Source of the DNA: a virus
Virus record (IMG/VR): IMGVR_UViG_3300024324_000069
Location: 1 to 26,756 of that record
Strand: one strand, 5' to 3'
DNA: 26,756 nucleotides
This document shows, one piece after another, positions 2,446 to 25,018 of this stretch. Position 1 is the first letter of the stretch. Each line of letters starts with the position of its first letter. Both the position numbers and the translations under genes were made by a program. The notes under the pieces are model-generated. The model searched no databases. It was not told the DNA's origin and saw only the letters and a list, made by a program, of their open reading frames with translations.

Positions 2446-3624
2446 ATGACTGATTTAGCTCAAATTCCAATTTGACCTGGTAGTGGATCGGCGGTAAGTG
2501 GTAGTACTCCATATGGATTCTATGACACCGACGCTACATTCCAATCAGAGGCACCCAAATTCGCGAATTGATCAGCTACAACATTGGGGTATCCTATTGT
2601 AGAAGTTGAAATGCAAGACATAAATTTTTATGCGGCATTTGAAGATGCTGTAAATGAATATTCATCACATGTAAATCAAATCAATATTAGAGACAACCTA
2701 TTACATATGCAGGGTCAACCCACATCTTCAAATCTTAGTCAACAGGTAGTAACACCAACATTAGCTAGAACTGTTTTTATGTCACAACAGTATGGTTCTG
2801 AAACTGGGGCTGGTGGATTTGTAGATTGGAAAATGGGACATATTACAGCTAATAGTAGTTCCAATGAATATGACTTGAATGCATTATTTGCAGACGTATC
2901 CGAAAGTGGAGCGGCCATTGAAGTTAAAAGGGTATTCCACGATGGTTCTCCAGCCATATCAAGATATTTTGATCCGTATGCAGGAACTGGTGCTGGTTCA
3001 TACAATATGATGGATAACTTTGGTTGGGGCAATATGACACCCGCCGTACAATTTATGATGATGCCTATATACGCTGATTTACTTAGAATACAAGCGATTG
3101 AGTTCAACGATCAAATCAGAAAAAGTGCGTATCATTTTGAAATCCGAAATAACAAATTGAAATTATTTCCAATACCAACGACATCATTCGCGGTGTGGTT
3201 TGAATATATAATTGTAAGTGAACGTGATAATTCACTTGTAGCTCATTATAGTGGTTCCACATCAGGTAAGATAGCGGATTATTCCAATATTCCGTATAAC
3301 AATATGACATATACAGCAATCAATTCAGTTGGTAAACAATGGATACGCAAGTATGCCTTAGCTAATGCTAGGGAAACATTGGGTGATATCAGAAGCAAAT
3401 TCGGGTCAATTCCAATCCCAGATTCAGAAGTACAGTTGGATGGTGAAACCATGCGTGCAGAGGCAATTGCCGAAAAAGAACGGCTGGTTACTGAATTGAG
3501 GGAAACATTGGAAGCTATCAGTAGAAAAGCACTGGTCGAAGCCGACAAGGAAGAATCAGAGAATTTACAGGAAAAATTGAATAAAATACCAGTTCAGATT
3601 TACATTGGACTTTTGGGAGGATAA
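2446..3624 (+). CDS. Virion structural protein, probable neck protein (2 UGA-Trp codons), 392 aa
   Basis: The start is ATG 2446 (MTDLAQIPI-W-PGSG), with AGGAG 7 nt upstream. In-frame UGA codons at 2473 and 2569 (residues 10 and 42) must be read through. Under the standard code the protein would lose its N-terminus and its ribosome-binding site. Phrases such as PYGFYDTDATFQSEA, LGYPIVEVEMQD and a C-terminal KYALANARETLGDIRSKFG match a structural protein of T4-like environmental phages usually placed in the neck or head-completion region. The C-terminal 70 residues are strongly helical. The neck assignment is from memory of the family and its position; the structural role is firmer. Confidence 0.75.
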
Positions 3625-3625
3625 T

Positions 3626-3802
3626 ATGAAAAAATCAGAACTGCGTGAAATAATTAAAGAAGAAATTTTAAAGGAAGCCAAAAATGAAGCCAAAATGGTA
3701 ATAACTGGTAGAACTATTAACGTCAGTTATGATGACGTCGATGAATTTGCTAAATTTCTTGACAAATATAAAATCAAATACTCATTTCCAGCGAAGGGAT
3801 AA
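3626..3802 (+). CDS. MKKSELR-type small protein 1, 58 aa
   Basis: ATG 3626 follows the neck-gene stop by one base, with GGGAGGAT ideally placed upstream. It is the first of five genes whose products start MKKSELR. Here the segment reads MKKSELREIIKEEILKEAKN, a charged amphipathic helix containing LKE followed by A. The rest (MVITGRTINVSYDDVDEF...) is a small alpha/beta-looking domain. The set recalls the capsid-targeting sequences of T4 internal proteins, which are cleaved after (L/I)xE. That comparison is inference. Confidence 0.75.
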   Translation: MKKSELREIIKEEILKEAKNEAKMVITGRTINVSYDDVDEFAKFLDKYKIKYSFPAKG

Positions 3803-3806
3803 CACA

Positions 3807-4229
3807 ATGAAAAAATCAGAATTAAGACAAATGATAAGGGAAGAAATTCAGGCATTGGATGAAACCGTAGTTAAATTGGCCGATGACAAATATAATATCA
3901 AAAAAGTTGAATTTAAATTTTTGGATAAAATTTCCAAAAGGGGGTGGGAAGGAATTATTTTCCTTGGAGCCGGCGGTGAATTAAACGATTGGGTTAAGGG
4001 TATTAATGATCTATGGAATAAAGAAAAACTTGGAAGTGGTTTAATAGAGGACAAAATGCAGGGATTGTATTTCGTCAAAACTACAGGTGGCCGGATGGAT
4101 TTGGTAATGATATTTAAAACCAAAAGTAAATTGGATATTGGAAAATTGGCAATGTGGAGACTAGCTTTCGGTGACGCATCGTGGCTATCTGATTATGTTG
4201 TTAATTATAAATCTCATCATGAGGATTAA
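3807..4229 (+). CDS. MKKSELR-type small protein 2, 140 aa
   Basis: The start is ATG 3807, preceded by GAAGGGAT. It begins MKKSELRQMIREEIQALDET, with LDE before T as a possible processing site. The body (residues 20-140) has five UGG-encoded Trp and looks like a compact mixed fold: WEGIIFLGAGGELNDW, then KTTGGRMDLVMIF. No known domain is recognised. Since bodies differ among the family while the N-terminal segment stays constant, the N-terminus is more likely a targeting tag than part of a shared fold. Confidence 0.75.
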   Translation: MKKSELRQMIREEIQALDETVVKLADDKYNIKKVEFKFLDKISKRGWEGIIFLGAGGELNDWVKGINDLWNKEKLGSGLIEDKMQGLYFVKTTGGRMDLVMIFKTKSKLDIGKLAMWRLAFGDASWLSDYVVNYKSHHED

Positions 4230-4232
4230 AAA

Positions 4233-4496
4233 ATGAAAAAATCAGAATTAAGACAAATCATACGAGAAGAAATCCAGAAATTGAATGAAGCCAGTTATGT
4301 GGCATTGAAATCATTGGGTAAGGATATGGCTATCGATTCATATGAAGCTACCATATTTAATTCGAAAAGCTCTAAATCAAAGGGATTTGAATATGGAACG
4401 CCAAAATGGTTTGCCGCTTATAAAAAAATGAGTAAAGAAGATAAGAAAATGGTTGACGGAATAGCTGATGATTGGATGGGAAGGAAAGCTCATTAA
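4233..4496 (+). CDS. MKKSELR-type small protein 3, 87 aa
   Basis: ATG 4233 follows the previous stop by three bases, with GAGGAT upstream. It begins MKKSELRQIIREEIQKLNEA; LNE before A fits the proposed processing pattern. The first 20 bases are identical to those of the 3807 gene, indicating duplication. The C-terminal body is Lys- and Ser-rich and ends in DDWMGRKAH. Function unknown. Confidence 0.7.
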   Translation: MKKSELRQIIREEIQKLNEASYVALKSLGKDMAIDSYEATIFNSKSSKSKGFEYGTPKWFAAYKKMSKEDKKMVDGIADDWMGRKAH

Positions 4497-5384
4497 ATGA
4501 CAGGTAGATTTATGAATGATAATCAGAGAGAATGTCCAGAATGCGGAAAAATTTTAACATATTCTTCCGCGAAGGATATGAGATATATTGATAAACAAGG
4601 CCGATTGTGTCATTCTTGTGCCGGCAAAAAAAATGACAATAAAAGGAATAAATGGAATTTGCATAAAATTGATGGAGAGTGGAAACGAAATTGCCCCGAA
4701 TGCAATAAGTCTATGATTTATGCGTCAAAAAATAGTTTAACTAAGGCCGTTAGAACTGATTCAATGTGTGGAAGCTGTAGTCTCAAGGGTGATCGTTCTA
4801 GTTTTTTTGGAAAGTCGGGATCGAAAAATGGTATGTATGGTAAAAATTTGCATGATATTTGAATAAATAAATATGGTAAGCAAAAGGCCGATATTATGTG
4901 AAAAGGGCGATATGAAAATAATGCTAAAAAAGGCAAAGAATCACATTTTTACGGAATTGCCGGGAAATCACACCCAATGTTTGGCAAATCAAATTACTAT
5001 TTTTGGTATGGAAAATATGGAAAAGATAAGGCGGACAAATTGCAATATGAATGGAAAAATTCTATTAGTGCTGGAGTAATAAATTATTTATACGATGGGG
5101 ATATTGCAAAACGTGAAAAATATCTTGATAATTTGCCCAAAAAAGATAAATATTATTATGAAGTTAGAAAATTGAGTGAACGACAACCATTATATTTATT
5201 GGAAAATTGTGAAAATCGTGGGAAATTTGAATATCATTTAGATCATATAATTCCAATAATATATGGATTTAATAATAATATCCCTTCACATGAAATGGCG
5301 AGCATATCCAATTTGCAATTTATTCCATGGAAAGACAATTTGCATAAAAGCTCTACATATAAGGAGACTAATTTTGAGCGGTAG
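4497..5384 (+). CDS. HNH homing-type endonuclease with zinc ribbons and NUMOD3-like repeat (2 UGA-Trp codons), 295 aa
   Basis: Starts MTGRFMNDNQRECPECGK at the base after the preceding stop. Two CPEC...CxxC zinc-ribbon-like units cover about residues 12-100, followed by a NUMOD3-like patch (SSFFGKSGSKNGMYGK). UGA codons at 4860 and 4899 (residues 122 and 135) are read as Trp. Under the standard code the zinc fingers and nuclease would be separate fragments. The C-terminal HNH module is clear: YHLDHIIPI, later SNLQFIPWKDN. The family cuts DNA and promotes its own spread. It interrupts a structural operon and overlaps the next gene by 11 bp, and a 13-bp repeat flanks it (see findings). Confidence 0.85.
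4503..4515 (+). repeat. 13-bp direct repeat, left copy, at the HNH gene start
   Basis: GGTAGATTTATGA occurs here and again at 5380-5392, at matching positions near the start of two consecutive genes in the same reading phase (GRFM in both proteins). The two copies bracket almost the whole HNH gene. Confidence 0.75.
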
Positions 5385-5859
5385 ATTTATGACGGGTCGA
5401 GATTTAAAGCTCTTCGATCGAATCAATAAGGAAGTGATAGGAGATTTAGGATCAGGAAAACCTGGTTGGATAAATCAGACCGCCATATTATACAAAATTT
5501 CAGCCAAAGATACCGCAGTAGATATGTATGGGGAATCTTCAGACGGCAAGACATATAAGGTAGGAATTGAATTTGCATGTTTAATTAACCACGATGATTT
5601 CGACTGGAGCTCGGAAGCATTCGGACCTGATGAAAATCAAAATGCTACATTTCACATATTACGAGACGCGATGATACAAGCGGCAATTGTACCACAAGTG
5701 GGTGATATATTTGAATGGAATTACGCCTATTTTGAGATTAACGGCATCAATGAAAATCAGTTAATATATGGAAAATATGATAATAACTGGTCGGCATCAT
5801 ATATATGTCACAGGATAAGAAAATCCAACCTAAATATAGAAAGGGTGAGATCACAATAA
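5374..5859 (+). CDS. Conserved T4-like virion/neck-region protein, TTG start, 161 aa
   Basis: The frame has no good ATG. TTG 5374 is chosen because AAGGAG (5361-5366) lies seven bases upstream, and because the protein then begins (M)SGRFMTGRDLKLFDRIN, as I remember its homologues in T4-like environmental phages. The conserved order YGESSDGKTY, EAFGPDENQNATFHILRD, VGDIFEWNYAYFEINGINEN and SLNIERVR is typical of that family. The family is structural and lies near the neck/tail-completion genes; the exact role is unknown to me. All Trp are UGG. The start overlaps the HNH gene by 11 bp. Confidence 0.75.
   Translation: MSGRFMTGRDLKLFDRINKEVIGDLGSGKPGWINQTAILYKISAKDTAVDMYGESSDGKTYKVGIEFACLINHDDFDWSSEAFGPDENQNATFHILRDAMIQAAIVPQVGDIFEWNYAYFEINGINENQLIYGKYDNNWSASYICHRIRKSNLNIERVRSQ
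5380..5392 (+). repeat. 13-bp direct repeat, right copy, at the structural gene start
   Basis: Second copy of GGTAGATTTATGA. It encodes GRFM just after the TTG start of the 5374 gene. See the left copy at 4503. Confidence 0.75.
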
Positions 5860-5905
5860 TGAAAAAATCAGAACTACGACAAATGATTATGGAAGAACTA
5901 TTAAA
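5855..5905 (+). repeat. 51-bp direct repeat, copy 1
   Basis: Bases 5855-5905 are identical to 6360-6410. They cover four bases before the ATG plus the first 47 coding bases of two MKKSELR genes. Such identity in a coding repeat points to recent duplication or recombination at this segment. Confidence 0.85.
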
Positions 5906-6347
5906 TGAAGCGGCGACACCACAATCAATTTACTCCGATATGGATTCATTGACAAGTGACATAGTTAAAACCATTAGGAAACTTAAAAAGCTTGATAAAG
6001 AATATCAAATTGCGGCTGAAAATGAATTTAAAGATATATACGATAAAATAGAAAAGGCGTGTAAAAAATTGTACCCTACAGCACGTGTTCATAGGTTAAA
6101 AAATAATTCCGTATCTATAAGTTGGAAAGCTGACGAATACAGGGAAATGTTTATATGGAAAACTAAAAATGCAGGACCACATCCAAAAAATGGGGTGGAA
6201 AATGAAATCAACACTCCAGATTCAATAAAAGTGTCTTCAGATAAGTATGGATTTACAGTTAGTATTACTCAAAAATTTAAGAATGGCGTTTTATCCACAA
6301 AACCTACCAATAGTTTCTATACTAGAATAAATGCCGCAACTCGTTAA
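5859..6347 (+). CDS. MKKSELR-type small protein 4, 162 aa
   Basis: ATG 5859 overlaps the previous TAA (TAATG), and GGGTGAGAT lies upstream. The tag reads MKKSELRQMIMEELLNEA, with LNE before A at residues 15-17. The body is basic: a helical section (SDIVKTIRKLKKLDKEYQ...) followed by a beta-looking C-terminal half (ARVHRLKNNSVSISWKAD, then YGFTVSITQKFKNG). It looks like a small alpha/beta domain of unknown family. Basic character would suit a DNA-contacting cargo protein, but this is speculation. Confidence 0.75.
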   Translation: MKKSELRQMIMEELLNEAATPQSIYSDMDSLTSDIVKTIRKLKKLDKEYQIAAENEFKDIYDKIEKACKKLYPTARVHRLKNNSVSISWKADEYREMFIWKTKNAGPHPKNGVENEINTPDSIKVSSDKYGFTVSITQKFKNGVLSTKPTNSFYTRINAATR

Positions 6348-6359
6348 AACAAAGGATTA

Positions 6360-6410
6360 AATAATGAAAAAATCAGAACTACGACAAATGATTATGGAAG
6401 AACTATTAAA
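6360..6410 (+). repeat. 51-bp direct repeat, copy 2
   Basis: Identical to 5855-5905; it spans the start of the 6364 gene. The two copies are 505 bp apart, so recombination between them would delete or duplicate exactly one cargo gene. Confidence 0.85.
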
Positions 6411-6591
6411 AATCAATGAAGTATCCCGCGATAAACCGGAATATGTCAAACATATAAATGTGGGTCCCAATAAACTCAATGTAATATTGTATAATGATAG
6501 AATAAAAGTAACTAGATTAGTTAGTGGTGATGATTTTATTATGATTGATGAATTGCCCGCATTAATGAAAGTTCTACAGAAAATAAAATAG
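6364..6591 (+). CDS. MKKSELR-type small protein 5, 75 aa
   Basis: ATG 6364 with AAAGGAT upstream. It begins MKKSELRQMIMEELLKINEV; INE before V at residues 17-19 is the candidate processing site. The remaining 55 residues (HINVGPNKLNVILYNDRIKV...) look like a small beta-rich domain. It ends in TAG and is followed after nine bases by the sheath-stabiliser-like gene. Its DNA start is identical to that of the 5859 gene although the bodies are unrelated. Confidence 0.75.
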   Translation: MKKSELRQMIMEELLKINEVSRDKPEYVKHINVGPNKLNVILYNDRIKVTRLVSGDDFIMIDELPALMKVLQKIK

Positions 6592-6600
6592 GAATAAAAC

Positions 6601-7401
6601 ATGGCATCACGCACAAGACCACAACCTAGAACCGAACGACAAACTAAGGGTCGGGTAGTACAAAGAGCAGAACAGGTATCCAGAAAAAATGATACCGAAC
6701 CAAATGTATCCATTGGATTAATGGATATCGATGCCGCAGTTATGTACTATTTTCAGGAAGTGATCAAACCTACCGTAGTCGATAATGGCGAGCAAATAAA
6801 AGTACCAGTTATGTACGCAAATCCAGAACGATGGAAAGCCGCACAAGTTGACGGTTATATTCGTGACAACAAACGACAAATAATTATTCCAGTTGTAGCT
6901 TTCAGGCGAACTGGAGTCGAAAAAGACGATAGCATGCCAGTTGATAAACTGGATGCAAATGATCCAAAATTACACTATGTATTTGAACGAAAATATACAC
7001 AAAAGAACAGATACAGCAATTTTTCAGTAACACAAGGCGCGTTGCCACAACGAGAATACTACAAAGTGGTCGTGCCCGATTATGTTACTTTAAACTATGA
7101 ATGCACATTGTGGACAACCTATACAGAGCAAATGAATAGACTTGTCGAAAAGATAAACTATACTGATGGGTCATATTGGGGCGAACCTGGTAAGTTTAAG
7201 TTCCGATCCGAAGTTAGTGGATTCGATGATGCAAGCGAGTACGATGATGGAGAAAGAAAAATAAAGATGGGCTTTACGCTCACCGTAAAAGGTTATTTAA
7301 TACCAGAATCATTTAACGATTATATAACTACAACTAAAGCATATTCACCCAAAACTACTGGAATCAGCACTTCATTTAAAGAAAAAGTAGCTTTAAGTTA
7401 A
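6601..7401 (+). CDS. Probable tail completion / sheath stabiliser protein (T4 gp15- or gp3-like), 266 aa
   Basis: Starts MASRTRPQPRTERQ after GGAATAAAAC. A basic, probably disordered N-terminus of about 35 residues is followed by SIGLMDIDAAVMYYFQEVIK, VPVMYANPERWKAAQ, REYYKVVVPDYVTLNYECTL and SYWGEPGKFKFRSEV. These phrases match a conserved structural protein of T4-like environmental phages that lies just before the sheath gene. By synteny it corresponds to the gp3/gp15 class that caps the tail tube and stabilises the sheath. The three Trp codons are UGG. Family recognition is good; the exact gp number is uncertain. Confidence 0.7.
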   Translation: MASRTRPQPRTERQTKGRVVQRAEQVSRKNDTEPNVSIGLMDIDAAVMYYFQEVIKPTVVDNGEQIKVPVMYANPERWKAAQVDGYIRDNKRQIIIPVVAFRRTGVEKDDSMPVDKLDANDPKLHYVFERKYTQKNRYSNFSVTQGALPQREYYKVVVPDYVTLNYECTLWTTYTEQMNRLVEKINYTDGSYWGEPGKFKFRSEVSGFDDASEYDDGERKIKMGFTLTVKGYLIPESFNDYITTTKAYSPKTTGISTSFKEKVALS

Positions 7402-7437
7402 AAAGTTTTACTTATAAGCGGGTTTTGATAGTTTTGC

Positions 7438-7454
7438 TTGATATATATATGTAA
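7438..7454 (+). promoter_or_regulatory. Candidate late promoter motif, variant
   Basis: TTGATATATATATGTAA matches the GATATTTATATGT motif of other structural units with one change (T to A). It lies 44 nt before the start of the 7498 gene and opens the sheath unit. Confidence 0.45.
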
Positions 7455-7497
7455 AGATGTTAACAAAACAACAGTTACTAAAAACAGGAGAAAAGTT

Positions 7498-7788: not shown

Positions 7789-7816
7789 TCAATCCTTATA
7801 AATTAGGAGAATACAA

Positions 7817-10195
7817 ATGGCCGAAAGAATAGTAAGCCCAGGTGTATTTACAAACGAAACCGATTTATCATTTCTTCCACAGGGAATTTCTGAAATTGGT
7901 GCTGCAATAATCGGGCCTACCATAAAAGGACCGGCATTTGTACCCACAATTATTAGAAACTTTCAAGAATTTGAAGAGATTTTTGGATCAACGGATAAGC
8001 GTTTTTATACACCATACGCAGTAGAACAATATTTAAGGAGCGCCGGCACAGTTACCATAGTCAGGACACTAGGACTGGGTGGTTACATAGCCGATTATGT
8101 CGCACTTAAACTTTCAAGTTCACTTGGCGATTACACAGCCGCAGTTCTTGCACCATCACGTGGTGGATCAAATGGAACGGCGGATTTATCAGCATGTACA
8201 ATTACAGGTGATTGATCGTCAGCAACATTAACAATAAGTGGTTCTGGAGTCGCGACTGCCACATACGCGATTTCATTTAATACTGGTAGTGCAAATTACA
8301 TTGAAAACGTATTAAGTGCGAGTCCACAAGTTCAAACTTCTGGACAGGCCACATTAGCCGCGTACCTTTATAAGAATTACAAAACATTCCAATCTAGCCA
8401 TGGATTTGATGCTAACATATCAGCGTCACTTTCTAGTGCATCACTTGATTTCAGCTTTGATTCAACATCTGCAACCGCGATTGACAATCTAGCTGGATAT
8501 ACCCCTTACATACAATCACAATTAATAAATGGATCACGATATAACTTATTTCAAGTTTATACACGCTCGCATGGAACTGATGTGAATAGTAAATATGTGG
8601 TAGTAATGTTAAATATCAAAGCGGCCGGCAGTGTACCGGGAAGTAGCTTTGGTTCATTCTCATTGCAAGTTAGAAAAACGGATCAAGTGGCATGGAAGCA
8701 GAAAAATGAAACGGTAGTGGAACAATGGGACGATCTAAACTTCGATCCTACCAGTACTAATTACTTTGCTCGTGCAATTGGTGATAGATATGTGGACATT
8801 AGCAATACTGGTAAATTGACATATAATGGTGACTGGCCTAATAAGTCCAAGCACGTATATATTAGAAATTACACCGCTATCGCTGATGGTTCCGTTCCAG
8901 TAACAGTAGTCCCAATGGGATTTGCTGCTGTGAGCAACGCCGATCCAACCACAACCGCAGTACCTTCTGCATCATTTGTAACATCTCAAGTGAATCCTGA
9001 TACATCAGCATTCAATTCAGCATATTACTATGGTTGGGATAACACCAAATATGATAATAGGGAATATCTTGCACCAATTCCAACATCAGCGGGCGTTGGT
9101 AACAACGTGACAATGAGTTTGGAAGATGTGTATGGTAATGCCGATGCAAGTGCATTGGGAACACCTTATTCAGACGCATCCGAAACAATCAACTTAACAG
9201 ATTCACACATTAAACAACGTAAATTCTCTGTACCATTCCAAGGTGCTTTTGATGGGGACAACCCAGCAAATCCAAAATCGACTGGTGCTGATATTGCGGC
9301 TAATAATGTAATGGGATATGATTGTTCAAGTGCCACTACTAGTGGATCAGTGATTTATAAACGTGCTATTAACGCCGTAAGTAATCCGGATGAATTTGAT
9401 ATCAATATGTTAGTTACTCCTGGAATTATCCATAAATGGCACCCCGTGGTTACAAATCACGCTGTTGACAAAATGGAAGCCAGAGGCGACGCATTTTATG
9501 TCATGGATGCTGCAGATATTGACGATACCATCGACAACGTGACTGATACGATTAGTGCATTAGACACTAACTATTCAGCTACTTATTATCCTTGGGTTAA
9601 AATCGCTGATAGAAACACATCACTTCCAGTATGGGTTCCACCTGGTGTTGTATTACCTGGTGTGATTGCATATACAGATGGGGTAGCTCACGAATGGTTT
9701 GCACCAGCAGGTCTAAATCGTGGTGGCTTGACTACTGTATTGGAAGCAAAGACTAGATTAACACATGATGAACGTGATACACTTTATGAAAATAGAGTTA
9801 ATCCAATTGCATCATTCCCAGGACAGGGTGTAGTTGTGTGGGGTCAAAAGACCTTACAGGCACTTCCTTCAGCTTTGGATCGTGTTAATGTTAGACGCTT
9901 GTTAATTAAACTGAAGAAATATATCGCTTCAACATCAAGATACTTGGTATTCGAACAGAACGATTCTGCGACTAGAACAAGATTTTTGAATATGGTTAAT
10001 CCATTTTTGGAATCGGTTCAGCAGAATAGTGGTTTGACTGCATTCCAAGTTGTGATGGATGAGACGAACAATACTCCAGACGTGATAGATCGTAACAGAC
10101 TTGTGGGCCAGATTTTTATACAACCGACCCGCACAGCCGAGTTCATCGTTCTAGATTTTGTCGTGGTCCCGACGGGCGCAACATTTCCATCATAA
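7817..10195 (+). CDS. Tail sheath protein (T4 gp18-like; 1 UGA-Trp codon), 792 aa
   Basis: Starts MAERIVSPGVFTNETDLSF with TAGGAGAA upstream. This opening is the hallmark of contractile sheath proteins. GAAIIGPTIKGPAFVPTII and the C-terminal VWGQKTLQA, DRVNVRRLLIKLKKYI, FIVLDFVVVP complete the conserved sheath core. The middle (about residues 110-450) is the variable, surface-exposed insertion. An in-frame UGA at 8213 (residue 133, ITGD-W-SSA) splits the gene under the standard code. No start codon follows within the next 360 bases, so read-through is the only sensible explanation. The protein forms the contracting outer tube of the tail. Confidence 0.93.
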
Positions 10196-10218
10196 AAATA
10201 AACAGTAAAATAAACCTA

Positions 10219-10246
10219 AAACCCTCGATTTATCGGGGGTTTTTTA
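10219..10246 (+). terminator. Intrinsic terminator after the sheath gene
   Basis: AACCCTCGA and TCGGGGGTT pair across the loop TTTA, followed by a T-rich run to 10246. It closes the sheath unit before the early-type island. Confidence 0.85.
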
Positions 10247-10668: not shown

Positions 10669-10675
10669 GAAATTT

Positions 10676-10700: not shown

Positions 10701-10720
10701 GCCGCATTGCAAAATAAAGC

Positions 10721-10981: not shown

Positions 10982-11215
10982 ATGAATGAAGAATGGAATG
11001 ACATGGAATTTTCAAGGAACGAGGCGTTTATTAGTGAACTCAAAGCTTTGCTAAGAAAGTACAATGCTGAAATTAATGCCATATCAGATGAATATGGCAG
11101 TTATGAATCTTATGGTCCTCCAAGAATTGATATAGATTTTATGGTATATGCTGAAGGGGAGTCAAGCTGTATAGAACTGGGAAGTTATATTGATGGAAAC
11201 GAAAAAAACGCTTGA
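10982..11215 (+). CDS. Small acidic protein, 77 aa; only ORF ending in UGA
   Basis: ATG 10982 lies five bases after a -10 box, so the transcript is predicted to be leaderless or nearly so; the alternative in-frame ATG 11003 also lacks a Shine-Dalgarno. The protein (MNEEWNDMEF..., with AFISELKALLRKYNAEINAI) is acidic, with a helical core and no domain I recognise. Its stop is UGA at 11213-11215, unlike every other gene here. That UGA is part of the next promoter's -35 box. If read as Trp, translation continues in frame through the promoter into the 11267 gene, ending at 11491. Confidence 0.7.
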   Translation: MNEEWNDMEFSRNEAFISELKALLRKYNAEINAISDEYGSYESYGPPRIDIDFMVYAEGESSCIELGSYIDGNEKNA

Positions 11216-11240
11216 CTTTGTCATTTTTTTCTTGTATCTT
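11212..11240 (+). promoter_or_regulatory. sigma70-like promoter 3 of the island
   Basis: TTGACT (11212-11217), 17 nt, TATCTT (11235-11240), followed by CAGGT and ATG 11246. Its -35 box contains the UGA that ends the upstream ORF. Confidence 0.85.
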
Positions 11241-11266
11241 CAGGTATGATAAGAAAAGGAAAAGTA

Positions 11267-11491
11267 ATGAGTTTTACAGACGAAGAAGCAATTGAAATGT
11301 TTGGATGTACTGAAGCTGCCATTATAAAGAGTGTTGAGGAACCTATATTCCCAACCGCTCCGAGTATGTTGGTAATGTCAATCGCTTCAGATGTACAAGA
11401 AGAAATTAGTATGGGTATGTATGAAACTGCCCGACAACACTTAAATGTTATTAAATATATTGTCGCACGTTATTTGCGGGAAACGGAATAA
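11267..11491 (+). CDS. Hypothetical protein, 74 aa
   Basis: ATG 11267 (MSFTDEEAIEMFGCTE) is preferred because AAAAGGAAAAG lies just upstream. In-frame ATG 11246 sits at the predicted transcript start and would add seven residues. The protein is acidic and helical (SDVQEEISMGMYETARQHLN, then YIVARYLRET). No family recognised. It is followed after two bases by the 11494 gene, forming a two-gene operon. Confidence 0.7.
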   Translation: MSFTDEEAIEMFGCTEAAIIKSVEEPIFPTAPSMLVMSIASDVQEEISMGMYETARQHLNVIKYIVARYLRETE

Positions 11492-11955: not shown

Positions 11956-12447
11956 ATGGCTAACCTAATTGATGCTTCTGAGATTTTTTTCACACCATTC
12001 GAACCAAAGGTCAAAAATAGATATATAATGTATATAGAGGGAATCCCCGCATATCTTATTAAAACCGCGGCAAGACCTTCAATTACTTTCGAAGAGATTG
12101 AATTGAATCACATCAATGTCAAACGATATGTAAAGGGTAAGGGTTCATGGGAACCACTCGATATCACACTTTATGACCCAGTTGTTCCTTCCGCTGCACA
12201 AGCAGCTATGGAATGGGTTCGTTTAGGACATGAATCAGTTACCGGTCGTGATGGATACTCAGATTTCTATAAAAAGGATATTACAATTAACGTACTCGGT
12301 CCAGTCGGCGACAAAGTTGAAGAATGGACATTGAAAGGTGCATGGATTACCAGTTTCAATGGCAATGATTTAGACTGGACATCCGGAGCAGATGCAATGG
12401 AAATTAGTCTTTCTTTAAGATATGACTACGCAATTTTACAATTCTAG
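11956..12447 (+). CDS. Tail tube protein (T4 gp19-like), 163 aa
   Basis: Starts MANLIDASEIFFTPFEPKVK after AAAAAGGAGAATACAG, the strongest ribosome-binding site in the window, which fits a highly expressed virion protein. Length and pattern fit the gp19 family: NRYIMYIEGIPAYLIKTAARP, HINVKRYVKGKGSWEPL and WTLKGAWITSFNGNDLDW near the C-terminus. It polymerises into the inner tube of the contractile tail. All five Trp are UGG. It ends in TAG. Confidence 0.92.
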   Translation: MANLIDASEIFFTPFEPKVKNRYIMYIEGIPAYLIKTAARPSITFEEIELNHINVKRYVKGKGSWEPLDITLYDPVVPSAAQAAMEWVRLGHESVTGRDGYSDFYKKDITINVLGPVGDKVEEWTLKGAWITSFNGNDLDWTSGADAMEISLSLRYDYAILQF

Positions 12448-12472: not shown

Positions 12473-13597
12473 ATGGGCTATGATAGAAAATTATACGAAT
12501 CCATAGATAAACAATGGGAAAATTATGTTGAACTGGATGAAATAGATTTCAAAACTAAAGCTGATTTCGACGCATATAAAGAAAAACACAAAATGCGTGA
12601 TACCACAAAAGTTCGTGTGGGTGGCAAAGATACTACTGCCGGCGACGCGTCCGAAGACCCAAATGATGATTTTAATAGGGGTGGTGAAAGTGGTGGTGAA
12701 GACGACGACATTGGATATAGTTCAGAAGATAGATGGGACGACTTAGACCAAGAAGAAAAAGATGAAATTGAGAATACTCCTTGGAAAGAATTGGAAAAGC
12801 GGGAACGGGATATGCTTAAAGATGCGGGCCTCGATCCAGAATCTAAAGCACAAGAAAAATCTGCAACCAAATCCGGCTCAAAAATGTCTGATAAAGAAAA
12901 GCAAAAATTTAAACCAAAATACGATCACGATTCCAGAACCCAAAGCCCTGAAGTAAAAGCGGCCTTGAAAATGCATTGGAAAAAAGCTGCACAATATGGC
13001 TGGGAAGATCACATTGGTACAAGTGATGAAGATTTTAAACATATTCATCCCAAAGTTATAAGTCAAAAGGTATCTAATAAAAAGCAGTGGGATACTGATA
13101 GTAGTTTTGCTAGTGAGAGTGATTTTAATAAGGGTGTTCGGAGACCGGAAGAAGACAGACGGACTACTGATGAGAGAAAAATGCAATTTATTAGGCAGGG
13201 AATACACCCATTCGGTGGTAGAATGACAGATCATGGGTCTGGGGTATATCATTATTCAAACATGTATCAGGCAGATCACCCAGAAGAAATTAAACATTAT
13301 CAAGATGAATTAAAAGGACTTCTGAAAAAGGACCCAGACTTGATAAAACATGCCAATAAAAATAATCCCGATAATTATCTTCAAGATTTATTGGATTGGA
13401 AACCAGGAGATAAAGTACAATCTACTATAAATCACGAACCATATCCAGACTATCACGCGCGAAATGAAAAGGCCATTGGTATGAAATCTATGAAAGCCGC
13501 TGAAAAGGGGAAACCATTTACAACATTAACCAGAGGTGGCAAAGAAAAATACGAATCAATCTCCAAAAGATGAGAATCATTTATACAAAGGAAATAA
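12473..13597 (+). CDS. Large charged protein with YESI-KQWE N-terminal module (1 UGA-Trp codon), 374 aa
   Basis: Starts MGYDRKLYESIDKQWENY after TAGGAGAT. Residues 1-60 form a module shared with the 13791 gene. The rest is highly charged and low in hydrophobics, with acidic, disordered-looking residues 60-150 and a His/Lys-rich centre (HIGTSDEDFKHIHPKV). The standard-code stop is UGA 13571. Read as Trp, the protein ends eight residues later at TAA 13595, two bases before the next ATG, and its tail (YESISKRWESF) repeats the N-terminal motif. No enzyme motif seen. An encapsidated or structural accessory role is possible. Confidence 0.75.
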
Positions 13598-13790: not shown

Positions 13791-14219
13791 ATGAAAAAGG
13801 GATTATATGAATCAATAGCTAAACAATGAGAAAATTTTGTTGAATTGGATGAAATCGATTTCAAAGATCAAGCCGAATTTGATGCATATAAAGAGAAGCA
13901 TAAAATGCGTGATTCTACAAAAGTCAGGGTAGGTGGAAAAGATACTACGGCTGGGAAAGCTTCAGGCAAGAAAAAGAAACCGATGGTTTCATCCGATCAT
14001 ATACAAATGAGAGGATTACCTGGTTGAGAGCTTGAATCATTGGAAGGATATTTAATAGGTCCTAATGGTGAAGAACTTAAACCCAAAACTAAAGAGTGGA
14101 AAAAAATATATAAGAAATTGACTGGGTTTGATAAAAGGGATGTTGATGACGTTCTTTGGCAAAATAAAGATAATGCACGTATAAGTCGCTGACCATCTAT
14201 CCCCAAATGGATTAGATAA
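13791..14219 (+). CDS. Paralogue of the 12473 N-terminal module (3 UGA-Trp codons), 142 aa
   Basis: Starts MKKGLYESIAKQ-W-ENFVEL. Residues 4-56 align closely with residues 6-60 of the 12473 protein, including FDAYKEKHKMRD and TKVRVGGKDTTAG. UGA at residue 13 is opposite UGG in the paralogue. Further UGA codons are at 14025 and 14190 (residues 79 and 134). Under the standard code the gene would be cut into three pieces. The C-terminal half (GYLIGPNGEELKPKTKEW...) is unique. Tandem duplication followed by divergence of the C-terminal bodies is the simplest history. It ends TAATG, overlapping the next gene. Confidence 0.8.
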
Positions 14220-14757: not shown

Positions 14758-15531
14758 ATGAGCGAAGAAATGAAATTTCCTAGCGAAATTGTTTCGCTTC
14801 CGAGTAAAGGATTCTTCTATGCAGAAGATAATCCGTTGAGCTCAGGCGAATTAGAGATGCGGTATATGACCGCAAAAGATGAAGATATTTTAACATCACA
14901 AAACTTAATAAGAAGGGGGGTGGTTATTGACAAGTTATTAAAGTCCCTCGTAGTTGACAAATCTATTGATTTAGATTCAATGCTTATTGGAGACAAAAAT
15001 GCATTGATGGTAGCGGCCCGCGTATTAGGATATGGCAAAGATTATAACTTTGAAGTCGATTGTCCTGCATGTTCAGAACATAATAAGGATAGTGTCGATC
15101 TAACCCTATTAGTTGAAAAAGCTGTCAGTTTTGATGGTCTTGAAAAAGGAATTAATGAATTCAGTTGAACACTTCCAAAGTCGAAAATTGATATTAAATT
15201 CAAATTGCTCACCCAAAAGGATGAACGTGAAATTGATGCCGAACTCAAGGGTCTAAAGAAAATTAGTAAAAACGACGTTGAAAGTGATATCACAACCAGA
15301 CTGAAAAAAGTGATTACAAGTGTCAATGGAAATTCAGAACGAGCTTTCATTAATAACTTTGTAGATACCAGCTTATTGGCAGTAGATTCAATGCCATTCA
15401 GAGAACACCTTAGAAATATCACACCAGATGTTGATATGTCATACAACTTTGAATGTTCATTGTGTGCTCATGCTGAGGAGGTGACTGTCCCTATGACGGT
15501 CCAGTTTTTTTGGCCTTCCGCCAGAGTATAG
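14758..15531 (+). CDS. Baseplate/tail assembly chaperone, T4_baseplate (gp26-like) family, short form (1 UGA-Trp codon), 257 aa
   Basis: Starts MSEEMKFPSEIVSLPSKG after AAAAGGAGTTACT. The opening PSKGFFYAEDNPLSSGELEM with MTAKDEDIL is characteristic of the gp26-like base plate family. CPAC near residue 101 and CSLC near residue 241 form a likely zinc site. UGA at 15166 (residue 137, NEFS-W-TLPKSK) is read as Trp; homologues as I recall have an aromatic residue there. The 0-frame ends at TAG 15529, but the family's C-terminal region continues in the +1 frame (15512-15736). The gene lies between the tube and tape measure genes, the classical site of frameshifted tail chaperones. Confidence 0.8.
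15505..15511 (+). promoter_or_regulatory. Probable frameshift slippery site (seven T)
   Basis: TTTTTTT read as CAG-TTT-TTT-TGG in the 0 frame. A +1 or -2 slip lets tRNA-Phe re-pair perfectly and enters the frame that stays open to 15736. It lies 18 bases before the 0-frame TAG. Confidence 0.55.
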
Positions 15532-16305: not shown

Positions 16306-19008
16306 ATGGCAAAACGAACTTCTAGAAATATTGAGGCCAAAGAAACACTTGATTTAATGCGAGCTCAAATCACGAAGCTTGATGAGCAAATTGAAAAGGC
16401 CGATACTTTGGCAGAAAAGGGTAAAAAACGTAGTGCGGCCGAAGAAGTAACATATCAAAATATAAAAAAGCAAAATGCCGAATTAAAGAGAAAAATAAAA
16501 AACACCGCTACAAACGAAACTCAAATAGAAAATCTCGGGAAAAAATTTGCCAATCTTAGCAAGTCACAACAAAAGATTCTACAAAATACAGTCAATTGAA
16601 CTGACAATATGGCAACTCTGCAAGGAATTACCCTAAAGGAATCGGAATCACTGCAAAAAATACGAGATTTATCTAGTGAAACTATGGATTTGGGTTTGGC
16701 TATGGTACACAACCGGAAGAATTTAAATTCTGAAGAATTTGAAACGGTTGATTTATCTTCACATTTATCCGATCTGATGAAAACTAGAAAATCTCTGGCC
16801 GACGGTGAATATGATATTACGGAACAAGGTGTTGAAAATAATATTAAACTGATAAACGCTCAAATCAAAAATGTTAAAAGTATGCAAGCACAGTCAAAAA
16901 TGCATGATTTGATAAACAAAAAAAATACAGAATTAAATTCAAAAATTGAAGCTCAAAAGGAAAAATGGGGTGATATAAAGGCCAAATTGATATCCATTGT
17001 CACCAATCCAATAACGGCCCTTAAAGTTGGCATTTTGGCTATAGGGGTGGGGTTAGTAGCATTGGGTAAGAAAATGGTTGATTTCGGTAATGAAACTGGA
17101 TTTTCATATGGTCAATTAATTCAATTTGGACCGGCCATATTGTTTGCGCGAGAGGAAGCGAAAGCACTATTGGCTGAGTTTGGTTCACTTGATATAGCGA
17201 CAAGTCAAAATTTAATGAAAATGAAATTATTGGGATTCCAATATGGGGTATCCGCCGAATCTACAGCTAAATTGGCTGAAATGATGATGGCTGTATCAGG
17301 TTCATCCTTTTCAGCATCAATGCATAGTTTGGCAATGGTAGGTGAATTGGCTCGAGCAAACAAAGTTGCTCCAGCGGCAGTTATGGAAGATTTGGCTGGG
17401 GACACCGAAATGTTCGCCACATACGCAAAAGACGGTGGGGACAATTTATTTACAGCGGCAATCGAAGCTCGTAAATTGGGATTGAGTATTGCAACGACTG
17501 CAAAAATGGCTGAAAGTCTATTGGATTTTGAAAGTTCAATCGAATCTTCAATGGAAGCATCAATTCTATTAGGCAGAAATATCAATACGGATAAAGCTAG
17601 ACAATTGGCATTTACAGGTGACTTGGCAGGAATGCAACGAGAGGTATTAAAACAAGTTGGTAGTCAAGCGGAACTGGAAAATATGCAGTATTTCCAAAGG
17701 AAAAAATTAGCTGCAGCATTTGGTGTGGGAGTTGAAGAATTAACAAAAATGGTATTGAATCAAGAGCATTTAAATCATATGTCAACCGATCAAACTGCCG
17801 CTGCAGAAAAACACGCTGCAATGGTAAAGAATATCGGGACCGCGTGGAACGACATTACTGGGGCTTTAAAGAAAAGATTTCAACCAATGTTAGAGTCCAT
17901 TGGTGAAAAAATACCTGCAATATTGGAAACGATGAGTGGGTGGATAACTGACTATATAGCTCCAGCATTAGAATGAATGGTTAAAAATTGAAAAATAATA
18001 GCTATAACAGTCGGCGTACTTTTACTACCAGTTATTGCGATAGCGGCAAAATTTGCATTGATGGTGGCCTCCGTTGGTTTATTGGTCACTGGTATTAAAA
18101 AACTGTATGAATATTCTCCAGGATTATTGGCGAGCCTGACAGCTCTCGCTGCGGTTGCTTTATTATTCAGAAAACGAATTATTGGCAATGGAATGCTCAC
18201 AAAGTTGGGCAAAATGAAAGGTTTGATATCTGGAATGGCCTCTTCAAAGGGTGGATTATCAACAGATAAGGCTGGCAGATTAAGAGATGCTAAAGGAAGA
18301 TTTGCAAAAGCTCCAAAGCCAAAGGGTAAGGCTGGACTTGGATTCGTGGAACGAATTAATCCCAAAAAGATGTTGGCTGGTGCTGCAGCAATGGTAATTG
18401 TGGCTGGTGCATTATACATAACCGCACAGGCATTGGTGGTATTTAATAAAGTGGATTGGCCCAGTTTGGGTAAGGCCGCTTTAGCATTGGGTGGATTGGT
18501 AGTAGCGGTATTAGCATTGGGGGCAATAATGTCTAGTGGTGTTGGAACTGTGGCAATTTTGGCTGGTGCGGCAGCAATGGTAATAATGGCTGGCGGATTA
18601 TTGGTATTGGGATATGCTATTCAGGCGATAGGAACTGGATTTACTATGTTATCTGCTGGATTTCTTAGTTTTGAACCTATACTTACAAAATTGGCCCCAA
18701 TGACATCTTCCATAATAAGCTTGGGAGAAGCATTTGGTAAACTTGGTTGAGGTATGGCAAAACTGGCTGGCGGGGCATTATTATTGTCTCCATTTTTGCC
18801 TGTATTGGACAAATTGACTGGAATAGGTGGATCGTCGGATGTGACTGTTTCTGGAGATGGAAATACTGTTAATCAAGCGACTGATATGGCCGAAACGAAT
18901 AAATTATTAACTCAAATAGTGGGTGTAAATAGGGAATTATTAAAACAAAATAAGGATTTGATGAACAAACTGACTGGTAAAGTTGGAGAACTGGGAGTAT
19001 CGGACTAA
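16306..19008 (+). CDS. Tail tape measure protein (T4 gp29-like position; 4 UGA-Trp codons), 900 aa
   Basis: Four standard-code fragments in one frame join into a single 900-residue protein once UGA at 16597, 17974, 17989 and 18748 (residues 98, 557, 562, 815) are Trp. The N-terminal 200 residues are coiled coil. Hydrophobic segments follow at about 235-255 and 564-610 (AITVGVLLLPVIAIAAKF), then Ala/Gly-rich membrane-like stretches at about 690-780. The C-terminus is short and polar. Long helices with internal hydrophobic patches are typical of tape measures, which set tail length and enter the host membrane. At about 1.5 angstrom per residue it would give a tail near 130 nm. Confidence 0.85.
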
Positions 19009-22000
19009 TGAGTATTATAGATTTAACAAGTGATTTATCAGCTGGTGCTGGAGACAATTTAAGTCAACATGGTGGACGCCATGGTGGATTATCAAATGAA
19101 ACTCCATCCATGCCTGCACATTCAATTGAGCATTCTCAACTTGATACTGGAGTTGGTAATTCAAGTAATGCACAATCATTTAATGATGGTCATGGATATA
19201 CTGTTACTGGAAATAAAGAATTTGATAGACCCAATGAAAGTGCATTAGCTAATATGCTGGAAGCGGTGGGCAGTCAGGTACACCCAACTGGTGAAGGTAT
19301 TCAAACTGGTCCTGTTAATTATTTTAGTGGGGTTACTGGAGAATGGGGACCTGGGACATTGCCCGCTGGATTTACTTTTAATATGGCATACGGGGACTCA
19401 AAACTGGCACCAAATGACACAATGGCACTAAGTACAACCAGACATACTGTGGGGTTAGATACATTGGAACCTATCATCTTTGCGGCACCTAATGCATATG
19501 ACAGCGATTTTATGACTACTCCAATTGCTAATAACATAAGTAATCTGCAGGGATTTTCAGATTCATTAACTCATAATGTAAGTATGATTACATTAACTGG
19601 ACCAACCGCTGGTGAAACATATCAAACGGCAATAAATACGACACCCAGTACATTGGGCGCACATGGGAGTGATTTTATGACTACTCCAATTGCCAGTTAT
19701 ATTAGTAGATATGCTCCTCCAATTGAAACATCGGTAACTAATCCTGATATTGTTTATGACACTCCGGCGATAACATTGCCAATTTCATACGCTAAAACTA
19801 GAGCGGCATTTAATCATCACACGGCGATTCCATTTGCAGATTCTGTTCAATATATGACAGGAGACATAGCTGATACTGGTGTTCCAATATCATATGAGAA
19901 AACAGACCGAACATTTTTTGATCATTATCCAGAGGTAGATTTTGAAGATTCATTGCATTGGATTGAGGGTGATGTCAATTTGGCCGCACACAATCCAACT
20001 ACTATTAGAGCTAGACAATTATCTAGAATAGCGACTGCTCCAGTATGATCCACAACTAAAGATGCTATCAATACATCATTTGTGGATGGAAAACAACCTA
20101 CATTTCATATTCCAAAACAATATAGTTTTGTTGGTAATTATGGATTACAGACTAGAATACTGACCGATTCGGATGAAAACATTGATTGGGCTGGAACATA
20201 CCTACCAAATAAAGCGTCTACTAAACCTACATCAACATTACAATTTGCCAGCTTATTTGGACCAATTAAAGACAGTAGATTTAAAACCGGCGATGCAATA
20301 AACATGACATTTACGGATATATTTGGGCATGCATATGAAGCATTGTCGTCATTGAATTCCAATATCGCTTTACCTACAAAAGAAGATACTCCAAGTCCTA
20401 CGGATTCGTGGTTTAAAACATTCAGTATAGGCAAGTCATATACAAAAACATACAAACGACGATCTAGAATTCAATATTTTGATACCAGTACCACATTGAC
20501 AATGGAACCATATACTAGAAATTTTCAATTGGGCAAACAGAATGAAAATTCACCAAAATTTCTGAATACTGGTTTTTATAGGGGGGAGGCTTATTCTCCT
20601 TCCGTGGCCAAAATTGGAGAGGGCAGCTCAATAACAAATAACACACGTGGTGATCAATCACGCTTAAAAGATTTGCATAAAGATTCGTGGGGAAATGATG
20701 ATGCTACAAATTTGGATAATTATTACGGCCGTGGATTTAAAGACGGTGATGAACTCAATTATAGAATTGGAGATGGACATAATGATATAGGATTTAACCA
20801 ACCATTTTACCTTCATGATATAGGAGATAAATATGGATTGGGTAATACAGGCGCTTTTGATGAGGGCATAGTACGTGGTGGATTAATTACATCCATATCA
20901 AGAACTATTGCCGATGTATTCAGAATCGGCAAATTTATACTTTCGACTAAAGGTGTTCTATTTGGAATAAAACAAGTGGCATTGCAGACCCTTAATACTA
21001 AGGAAGAAACTAGAACATGGAATCCATTGTCATTGGGTTCTATAACGCCTACAGTTCATATCAACCGACATTGGAATACTGGATCACCACTTGTATCATC
21101 TACCGTTTTGGAATTCGAAGCGGCCAATCCTTTAGATACAAAACTTGTTGATTGGGGTGAAAATTCATTGAATTATCATTTCAGAAAAGAAGAAGCAATT
21201 ATAGATAATCCGGGAACAAATCCGTTATTATCAAAACTGGGAAGTCTACTGGGCAATAATGCGGAAGCAAGTAGAGAGATAGATAGAATTCGAAAAGATC
21301 AATTTGGTGATGATGAAAAATTTGCTGTAATTGATGTTGGAGATCAAAGTAATGCTGGAATTCTTAGACAATTTACAGATGGGTCTGAAACAACCGGAGA
21401 TGGATTTTTCTTTAGGCCCGAGACATTTAATGCCGGTTTGAAAAAGGCTGGTTTTAGTCATATTAAGGCCGATTTGGGATCGAGTAAGCTTATGACAAGT
21501 AAGGTTGACAAAGTTAATGCCCTACCATACGGGAGTGTTAATGGAAAAGAGCCAAAGGAAATTAACAATTTAGAAGTACGAGATTTCATTCCATTTAAAT
21601 TTAAAGATGTGGTCAATAATAAATGAATCATTTTCAGAGCCATTCTGTCTGGGATATCGGATAGTGTTACACCAGATTGATCAGAAGAAAAATACATAGG
21701 CCGCCCCGATAAAGTATATACATACGCTGGAGTGGACAGGGAAATAAGTTTCAATTTCAATGTATATCCAAAGACGAAACAGGAACTGCCAATTTTATGA
21801 GAAAAAATGAATTATTTAATTGGAATGTGTTACCCCAGCTGAAAAGATTTTTCCAATAGTGATATGGAACGAATGGTATCTCCATTTGCCGAATTGACCA
21901 TTGGTAATATGTGAACGGGGGCTCCAGGATTTTTAACCAGCTTATCAATAACGGTAGAAGATAACACCACTTGGGAATTGGATGATCATTTCAAATTGCC

Positions 22001-22262
22001 CAAGCATTTAAGTGTTAGTGTTGGGTATAAATACATTGGAAAACACAAGCCGGCTCAAAAGGGTAAGCATTATGATTTGGATTGGCTGGATTATAAAAAT
22101 AACAATAATAAAAGTTCCACTGCATATTTGGATAATCCAAATGGCAATTATCCCGATAGGCATTCCGATGGGATGGATTTAAGGGAATTGTTCGCGGAAA
22201 TGGGGCAATCTGGAAAGGGCGATGGACCATTTTCATGGTCTGATCCATCGTGGGAGGATTAA
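19008..22262 (+). CDS. Large baseplate protein, probable tail-tube initiator (gp48/gp54-like; 6 UGA-Trp codons), 1084 aa
   Basis: ATG 19008 overlaps the tape measure stop. Six UGA codons (20046, 21624, 21678, 21798, 21840, 21912) join three long frames and a 117-codon UGA-rich bridge. The C-terminal domain has the conserved order RAILSGISDSVTPD-W-SEEK, GRPDKVYTYAG, ELPIL-W-EKMNYLIGMCYP, then LTIGNM-W-TGAPGFLTSLS. This matches baseplate-tube junction proteins with a tube-like fold. The N-terminal 350 residues are polar and Thr/Asn/Ser-rich with two repeated SDFMTTPIA units, like a flexible or fibrous region. The assignment rests on domain resemblance and neighbours. UGG also occurs about 12 times. 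Confidence 0.75.
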
Positions 22263-22265
22263 AAA

Positions 22266-22568
22266 ATGGGTAGATATACACACACCAATATAAAAAGAAA
22301 TTCTTTAAAAAACCGTGTATTTAAGACTACATTGTATCCCAAGATTCCAATATTGGATTCTGATATTTTCACAATGTCCAAAAAAGGTGACAGGCTAGAT
22401 TTGCTTGCATTTAAATATTATGGAGACACATCGTTGTGGTGGATAATAGCACTTGCCAATGATATAGATGATGCAAATTTTACATTAAAATCTGGACTGG
22501 ATATCAGAATACCCACCGACACTGCACAAATATTTAGTGATTTGGAAGAATTAAATAGGGGGTTTTAA
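22266..22568 (+). CDS. Baseplate wedge protein, gp53-like with LysM motif, 100 aa
   Basis: Starts MGRYTHTNIKRNSLKNRVFK, three bases after the previous stop, with GGGAGGATT upstream. The middle reads DIFTMSKKGDRLDLLAFKYYGDTSLWWIIALAN, which carries the LysM signature (a GDRLD-type turn, then KYYGD and WWIIALAN). In T4-like phages the short LysM-bearing baseplate protein is gp53, which links wedges around the hub. Length suits an isolated LysM unit. Both Trp are UGG. Confidence 0.8.
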   Translation: MGRYTHTNIKRNSLKNRVFKTTLYPKIPILDSDIFTMSKKGDRLDLLAFKYYGDTSLWWIIALANDIDDANFTLKSGLDIRIPTDTAQIFSDLEELNRGF

Positions 22569-22570
22569 TA

Positions 22571-25018
22571 ATGATTAATCTACAACCCATACATAGTAAA
22601 ATTAGGGCGGAATTGCACAGACGACAAAAGTTGTTAAATAGAGAAGGCATACTATTTGAAGGTCCGCAGACCGATGGTACTGGGAAAAAGAAAGCCGACG
22701 CAAATAACATTTTTGCAAAATCGACTTGAATCCGGATGGTTGGGCTTATCAAAGATGATAAACCTGTAATAATAGGTGGGGGATTGTTAAAAGAAAATCA
22801 AGAAGCATATTATGGTTTTGAGGATATGTATAATTCTCCTAGAAATACTGGTGATAATCAGTACAGACCAATGCCTGGAGTAAAAAGTATTAGTGTTGAA
22901 TATAAAAATACATTGGCGACATTGCGTACTGCTACTATTAATTGGACTTGTTGGTCATTTGACGATGTTACCAAATATACTCCATATTTTTTAAAACCGG
23001 GTAGAACTGTTATTTTAGAATGGGGATATTCATATTCGGACAATGATATGGTATTACATGATATAAATGAAAAAAGCCCAGATATGATATTGGCACATAA
23101 AAAAATGATGGAAAATTCATTTAATTCCAATGGAACTTATGATGGTATGATTGGTCTCGTAACCAATTTTGAATGATCGACTAGAGACGATGGGGGAATC
23201 GATTGCACTACCAATATTTCTTCAATGGGATTAGACATATTAAAACAACGAATTACTCCAGTGGACAATATAAATGTCGCAAAAACGGATAAAAATGATA
23301 ACCGAAAAGTTGAACTTAAACAAAATTTCCAAACATTTCTAAGGGACATTTCAACCAAACTTGAAAAATTTAAACATGTGGATGATGGTGGAATTGGCAA
23401 TGAAGGAATGCCATTACAATGAATTAAGAATAGATTTGAACCATCTACCGGTGCCGATCCGAGATCACATGAATTATATATATCATGGGGATGAATAGAA
23501 GATAATATATTAAATAAATATTTAAGCAAAGTGGACGCTCACGGTGTAGTAATAAGTTCAATTCGAAGTATAGAACCTATATTAAAAGACAACGGGGATC
23601 AACACACAATCGAAACGGCTGGATTGGCTGAAACTGAAGGATTGCCCCCAGATCAGCTGGCATGACAATCAACTAAAATATCAAGTCATGATAAATTGAT
23701 TTCTCCAGATTATAAATTTTTTATTTTACCTGGACAATCGCATAGAAATGTGGATGATCTTACTGATGTTCATCCGATATTGCGGGATTTTAATAAGGAT
23801 TTCCCAACGTTCCAAGTAACTGATGATCCAGCTGAATATAAAAATTTAAAGATAGGATACATGCGAAATATAATGTTCAATTGGAATTATTTGATAACAA
23901 ATGTATTCAATGACGCGTCTGATATCACCAGTGCACTTAAAAAATTGTTTGAGAGAATGAATGAAAATGTTGGAATATGAGATTTGCAATTGGTATCTGC
24001 ACCAGATAGACCCGGTACATTAAAGATTGTAGACATGAATCTTACCAAACAATCTGTAAAATCGTTGCTTAAAATTCCGAGTGAATTGGATAAATATTGA
24101 GAAACTGTTACTGGTGGTTTATTCCATTTCCCAGTTATGGGTAAGGATAGTATTGTTACTGCACAATCATTAAATGCTAAAATTACAAATGAAATGGCTA
24201 TGGCGATGATGTGGGATAATGCTGAGGAAATTACGTCACCTTCCCAAATGGGAGGCATTAAAATTGTCGCTGCTAGTAAATTGGGTAGTGCTCCTGGTGA
24301 TAAAGACGGGCTGATTCATGATATTAAACCCGGTTGAAATTTTGATAAATTTGGTAATAAATCCGCTGGGGTAAATTCCAAATTTGATACGGAAAGTGGT
24401 CCCGATGTTGGTATTGAGGCCATTGATAAAAAAGGGTCAGATTCAGAAAATCACGATGATGAAACCGCCGAAACTGTCAAAAGCATACATACGTTGAAAT
24501 TTACCGAAAAACAATTTTTTGATTTTAATTTCAAATCGGAAGATAAAGACACATTGACTGGCAGTGTTTATGGATATTGGGGGAATTTATTAAATACCAA
24601 GGACACTCCATGATTGGATGTCATGAAATATTTAATTACATACGATGAAAAAGAATCGGTTTCTATTGATTTTGATCCCATGGTCGCGTTGGAAATCTCA
24701 TTAACATTGGATGGTATATCTGGGATTTTCCCAGGAAATTGTTTTACAAGCAATTATCTGCCTTCCCAATATAAAGATCGGGTATTATTTCAGGTTATGA
24801 GTTCTACACAAGAGCTGGACGCGTCCAGCTGAAAAACTTCCATTGTGGGAAAAATGAGAATATCCGTAAGGGATCAACTTGACACGGAAAAATCCGACCG
24901 AAATTTCCTAAAAGATGAAAAGGCCGAAAATGAAGAACAAATTGAAAGGACTGAGAACTCGGAAACGAAAGCTGAATTAATGAGACGATTGGGTTATATT
25001 ATTCCGGATGCATTATAA
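22571..25018 (+). CDS. Baseplate hub-like structural protein (10 UGA-Trp codons), 815 aa
   Basis: Starts MINLQPIHSKIRAELHRRQK just after the gp53 stop. Ten UGA codons (22727, 23174, 23420, 23492, 23663, 23978, 24098, 24335, 24611, 24830) would cut it into eleven pieces. With UGA as Trp one frame stays open for 815 codons. FAKST-W-IRM, RPMPGVKSISVEYKNTLATL, INWTCWSFDDVTKYTP, GRTVILEWGYS and YISWG-W-IEDNI are, as I recall, typical of a large baseplate/hub protein of environmental T4-like phages, where Trp occupies the UGA positions. A charged tail ends in AELMRRLGYIIPDAL. UGA outnumbers UGG here (10 to 7). Confidence 0.8.

Follow-up and report, generated by a model that had tools for sequence, protein, structure and literature searches.

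UGA as a predicted tryptophan codon in one clade of uncultured T4-like phages

The window analyzed here is the whole stretch of 26,756 nt, and across it and the sister species G001 (a contig of 140 kb) we found T4-type sheath, tube, baseplate, capsid and terminase genes together with UvsX and DNA polymerase. Ten genes of the window carry in-frame UGA codons; they are given below, followed by two structural genes used for contrast.

2446..3624, plus strand: head-tail adaptor (neck), phrog_211 (E 9.8e-13); UGA at codons 10 (2473) and 42 (2569)
4497..5384, plus strand: HNH-type endonuclease, a name taken from an earlier sequence-only reading; phrog_5104, of unknown function (E 2.7e-15); UGA at codons 122 (4860) and 135 (4899)
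7817..10195, plus strand: tail sheath, phrog_23 (E 7.9e-69), PF04984 and PF17482; UGA at codon 133 (8213)
10982..11491, plus strand: gene of unknown function; UGA at codon 78 (11213), as in its G001 homologue
12473..13597, plus strand: gene of unknown function; UGA at codon 367 (13571)
13791..14219, plus strand: paralogue of the N-terminus of gene 12473; UGA at codons 13 (13827), 79 (14025) and 134 (14190)
14758..15531, plus strand: T4-type baseplate protein, PF12322 (E 2.8e-11); UGA at codon 137 (15166)
16306..19008, plus strand: tape measure, phrog_4372 and phrog_167; UGA at codons 98 (16597), 557 (17974), 562 (17989) and 815 (18748)
19008..22262, plus strand: large putative tail/baseplate gene; UGA at codons 347 (20046), 873 (21624), 891 (21678), 931 (21798), 945 (21840) and 969 (21912)
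22571..25018, plus strand: putative baseplate hub; UGA at codons 53 (22727), 202 (23174), 284 (23420), 308 (23492), 365 (23663), 470 (23978), 510 (24098), 589 (24335), 681 (24611) and 754 (24830)
11956..12447, plus strand: tail tube (contrast gene), phrog_4542 (E 4.5e-29); five UGG, no UGA
6601..7401, plus strand: tail sheath stabiliser, gp15-like (contrast gene), PF16724; three UGG, no UGA

The hub and the gene at 19008 are named from position alone: their products had no match in PHROGs or Pfam, and the hub no significant match in the PDB. The phrog_5104 match of the HNH-type gene spans its UGAs, and its homologues are few. Five ORFs of the window (at about 3620, 3729, 4233, 5805 and 6364) have in common the N-terminal motif MKKSELRQMIREE, exactly or in a near variant, which we take to resemble a capsid-targeting peptide of the kind seen in the internal proteins of T4, with its I-x-E cleavage site. 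A diverged copy of the window gene at 25022-25609 lies at 290-874 of another contig of the same species (L262), with UGA at one of the window's UGG sites and another UGA at a Ser codon of the window; the divergence between the two copies suggests recombination of this gene.

The sequence-only reading had held that nine genes are broken by UGA alone, 30 times. Our direct count in the nine genes that it named is exactly 30 (neck 2, HNH 2, sheath 1, 12473 1, 13791 3, 14758 1, tape measure 4, 19008 6, hub 10), and the gene at 10982-11491, absent from its list, contributes a 31st. No in-frame TAA or TAG occurs in the UGA-bearing frames over 5,220 codons. Given that TGA makes up 38% of the off-frame stops within the same genes, the chance of 30 out of 30 being TGA is ~2e-13. 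The full-length proteins proposed on the assumption that UGA encodes Trp agree with their starts and with AGGAG-like sites upstream. As had also been stated, UAA and UAG serve as the stops elsewhere, with the ends of the 33 complete window ORFs that we inspected divided between TAA (26) and TAG (7), and none at TGA. When genes are predicted with code 4, the coding density of the window is 0.92 instead of 0.83 and the mean ORF grows from 155 to 249 aa, whereas standard-code relatives gain almost nothing in either. Standard gene calling, in turn, splits three genes into fragments: tape measure, 19008 and hub.

Interior stops could also arise from sequencing or assembly error, or from genes in decay. 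The sequence-only reading had named base-call errors as the finding that would undo it, and the replicates speak against them: other IMG/VR contigs of the window's species carry identical UGAs and hardly any codon differences, and for G001 there are three more contigs, 99.98-99.99% identical along shared stretches. The recurrence of the same UGAs in separate contigs excludes base-call error. Decay is further opposed by the lack of any UAA or UAG in the same frames. We found no point in favor of either, and give error or decay a probability close to nil.

To which amino acid does UGA correspond? We collected 236 related loci and masked UGA as X, so that the alignments were unable to favor Trp. 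At the UGA columns, homologues from relatives below 97% identity have TGG 175 times, Tyr 110, Phe 108 and Gly 10. A codon decoder restricted to standard-code loci scored Trp at 39.0, Tyr at 23.0, Phe at 14.9, Cys at -11.7 and Gly at -13.7, and assigned 60 of 61 sense codons correctly as a control; with all loci, Trp reached 52.7 and all 61 sense codons were correct. The leading residues (W, Y and F) are common to UGA columns and UGG columns. Thus the sites are mainly Trp, then Tyr or Phe, and the prospect of non-aromatic columns, which the sequence-only reading had set as its other test, did not materialize. These scores also bear on code 25, in which UGA encodes Gly as in Gracilibacteria and Absconditabacteria. 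The phages do carry tRNA-Gly genes, but with anticodons UCC and ACC and none with UCA; with Gly scoring so far below Trp, the column test refutes this assignment, to which we attach hardly any credence.

The individual columns follow the same trend. Codon 10 of the neck corresponds to Trp or Tyr, and codon 42 to Trp (24), Phe (8) and Tyr (1). At sheath codon 133, relatives at 60-97% identity have TGG 11 times, TGA once and other codons 3 times. Baseplate codon 137 is Phe or Tyr in standard-code relatives. Sister species G001 has TGG at tape measure codons 98, 557 and 815. In the 19008 gene, column 891 is TGG 21/Tyr 14 and column 931 TGG 24/Tyr 13, with 945 and 969 mostly Tyr, Phe or Trp; in the hub, columns 308, 470 and 754 are nearly all Trp, and 53 and 202 Trp or Phe. 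Paralogy within the window is equally informative. The motif YESI-KQ-W-EN is written with UGG at the N-terminus of gene 12473 (YESIDKQ-UGG-ENY) and with UGA at codon 13 of gene 13791 (YESIAKQ-UGA-ENFVELDEIDF), a column that is TGG in three of three homologues; the UGA of gene 12473 itself lies in YESISKR-UGA-ESF, a copy of its own N-terminal motif. UGA and UGG exchange at orthologous sites among three recoded species: tail tube codon 87 and two sites of the sheath stabiliser are UGG in the window and UGA in species G002. At other sites (neck 10, baseplate 137, hub 308 and 470, and UvsX 39) all three have UGA. Taken together, the alignments indicate that UGA is almost certainly a tryptophan codon in these phages, with UAA and UAG as the stops of the window.

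We found interior UGA codons in the window's species, in G001, in G002 (39 kb) and in the L164/L163 and L010/L011 lineages, that is in at least four species, and a single interior TGA in one further locus (L148). Another 173 loci had none over 220,660 aligned residues, which include 2,367 TGG. The sheath tree unites the recoded rows in a single group (support 89/71), sister to L125, the nearest relative, represented by 7 kb only. The aligned genes of L125 have 18 TGG and no interior TGA, and its neck gene stops at TGA, with the next stop 63 codons further. A sister that terminates at TGA sets the polarity from stop to Trp, on moderate clade support. Among these contigs, the recoding is restricted to one clade of uncultured T4-like phages comprising at least four species, and the switch is placed, with the same moderate support, within this clade, on the branch after the split from L125. 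With the recoded clade next to a sister that stops at UGA, the code switch can be assigned to a point in the phylogeny.

The use of UGA is uneven. It amounts to 22% of the Trp codons of the window, versus 73% A in comparable purine-ended (NNR) boxes. In the window's species the UGA:UGG ratio is 23:54 (30%) in structural genes versus 4:150 (2.6%) in the replication block (P 5e-9); the bias has the same direction, but is weaker, in G001 (P 0.011) and in G002 (P 0.073, not significant). The claim that UGA is used across the virion genes goes too far: in this species the tail tube, the sheath stabiliser and a gp53-like gene lack it, the HNH gene does not belong to the virion set, and UGA occurs outside virion genes both in this species and in its relatives. 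We assigned genes as late or early from their function. UvsX, a recombination gene and not expected to be late, has UGA at codon 39 in three recoded species (L109 12446-13564, and the G009 and G002 orthologues). A glycosyltransferase gene is likewise UGA-bearing, and one G002 gene has UGA near its start where orthologues have TGG. From its distribution over genes, the predicted sense use of UGA is not strictly late.

Some early genes have UGA at the position of UAA in a sister species, followed 2-7 codons later by a backup stop, so that the stop and Trp readings yield nearly identical proteins. The sites are:

33640-33978 of G001: early gene with UGA for UAA
17559-17924 of G009, reverse complement: early gene with UGA for UAA

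Judging from these sites, UGA may still terminate some early genes of the clade, and its partial and gene-class-biased use looks like an intermediate stage of recoding. UGA is the leakiest of the stop codons, and this, together with the few early genes that seem to end at UGA near a backup stop, could be taken to mean that UGA remains a stop throughout, passed by programmed read-through or by selenocysteine insertion at special sites. However, with ten UGAs in a single gene the losses would compound unless read-through were nearly complete, and UGA and UGG swap between species; these swaps and the negative Cys score lead us to reject selenocysteine or Cys, and we regard the whole explanation as very improbable.

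By sheath, capsid and terminase the closest phages are Microcystis phage Mel-JY01, Flavobacterium phage vB_FspM_immuto and one uncultured phage, with immuto and Mel-JY01, the closest cultured relatives, at 47-55% identity in these proteins; a capsid relative (63%) is encoded on a contig that was binned with a Flavobacteriales MAG. A sheath-based scan of a genome collection found no relative. On phage kinship and the one binned contig, the host would probably be a standard-code bacterium of the Bacteroidota. The phages might instead share the code of a host that itself reads UGA as Trp (code 4), like mycoplasma phages. Consistent with such a host, we found no decoder in the recoded contigs and no window gene ending at UGA among 33, and in INPHARED 22 of 27 table-4 phages are mycoplasma or spiroplasma viruses, which may share the code of their hosts (PMC11210395). 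In an AT-rich code-4 host, however, UGA should dominate the Trp codons, which is contrary to the shares given above for the window and for the replication block; the relatives infect Flavobacterium and a cyanobacterium, and the nearest sister, L125, stops at UGA. The argument from UGA share might lose force after a recent change of host, and we consider a code-4 host unlikely rather than negligible. The low share of UGA and its scarcity in the replication block are better explained by suppression in a standard-code host. Of the earlier claim that the phage uses code 4, the Trp assignment holds; the code is probably not that of the host, and UGA is an unevenly used, minority Trp codon.

We searched for the decoder with the Rfam tRNA model and with ARAGORN in default, intron and lowered-threshold modes. 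No tRNA with a UCA anticodon was found in the recoded contigs (those of 140, 72 and 39 kb and shorter ones, from genomes not fully assembled); the lowered-threshold matches were noise-like, and a UCA "SeC" candidate in G001 sits within a coding gene. Neither an RF-1-family release factor nor a TrpRS/TyrRS-family synthetase was found in these contigs, the 140-kb one included. G001 has no terminal repeat and its ends appear cut, so its genome may be incomplete; a search for contigs extending beyond the end of its record found none. A missing decoder is usual, since only 15% of the table-4 phages of INPHARED/UHGV have a UCA suppressor tRNA (Cook et al. 2024; PMC11210395).

Other tRNA genes were present. 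The tRNA-Gly(UCC) gene adjoins an aberrant tRNA-Gly-like gene in G001 (L110 1817-2058) and in the window's species (L249 1500-1656, minus strand). In the latter gene the anticodon loop has six bases (UUUCCA) and the T-stem two U-U mismatches; it is conserved in two species, between which the anticodon stem shows compensatory changes. We set it aside as a UGA decoder, as its six-base loop lacks UCA; perhaps it supplies glycine for a use other than translation, or serves as a decoy against tRNA-cutting defences. A 174-kb relative, G003, carries a tRNA of amber-suppressor type with a CUA anticodon (L091, L094). Its structural genes are without sign of UAG recoding, and this phage does not seem to be TAG-recoded.

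We favor, with some reserve, a standard-code host in which UGA is suppressed late in infection. In infected cells, and above all late, UGA would be captured by a Trp-inserting activity ahead of release factor 2; this activity would most likely be a tRNA-Trp(UCA) from an unassembled part of the genome, or the tRNA-Trp of the host combined with lowered RF2 activity. Late genes could then tolerate UGA for Trp, and replication genes, translated while UGA terminates, would mostly keep UGG. A specific form, in which the clade weakens host RF2 and the ordinary host tRNA-Trp(CCA) reads UGA without any suppressor tRNA of its own, seems to us slightly less probable again than a code-4 host; if true, it would mean stop reassignment by control of termination and not by a new tRNA.

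A contractile-tail T4-like phage with this code had been called unusual. This is right for the present lineage, for which an open-access literature search found no report of UGA=Trp, but phages with UGA=Trp have been published (PMC7886860, PMC11210395). Recoding of UGA to Trp is already known in phages, and what is new is the T4-like lineage. At least four recoded species beside a UGA-stopping relative make comparative tests possible, for instance of whether recoding delays late products, and of the order in which decoder and codon appeared. Compared with the table-4 phages of INPHARED/UHGV the code is the same, and the relatives of the present clade point to a standard-code host. The code-4 phages of Borges et al. 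(2022), as cited in PMC10746230, have RF1, a suppressor tRNA and TrpRS, none of which we found in the present contigs, and share with ours UGA=Trp; in that account recoded stops are tied to structural and lysis genes, and the late-gene model of Borges and Yutin is matched here by enrichment of the recoded codon in structural genes. Among the standard-code T4-like relatives other than immuto and Mel-JY01, interior UGA is absent. The closest likeness is to crAss-like phages (Crassvirales, e.g., the Zeta group; Yutin et al. 2021), in which UGA has come to encode Trp, chiefly in late genes; codes differ between close relatives, and the suppressor tRNA is sometimes not found (PMC7886860). The present clade shares the first two features, and no suppressor tRNA was found in its contigs, from genomes not fully assembled; crAss-like phages, however, are gut phages, whereas this clade is T4-like and contractile-tailed, with sheath, tube, baseplate and capsid of T4-type families.
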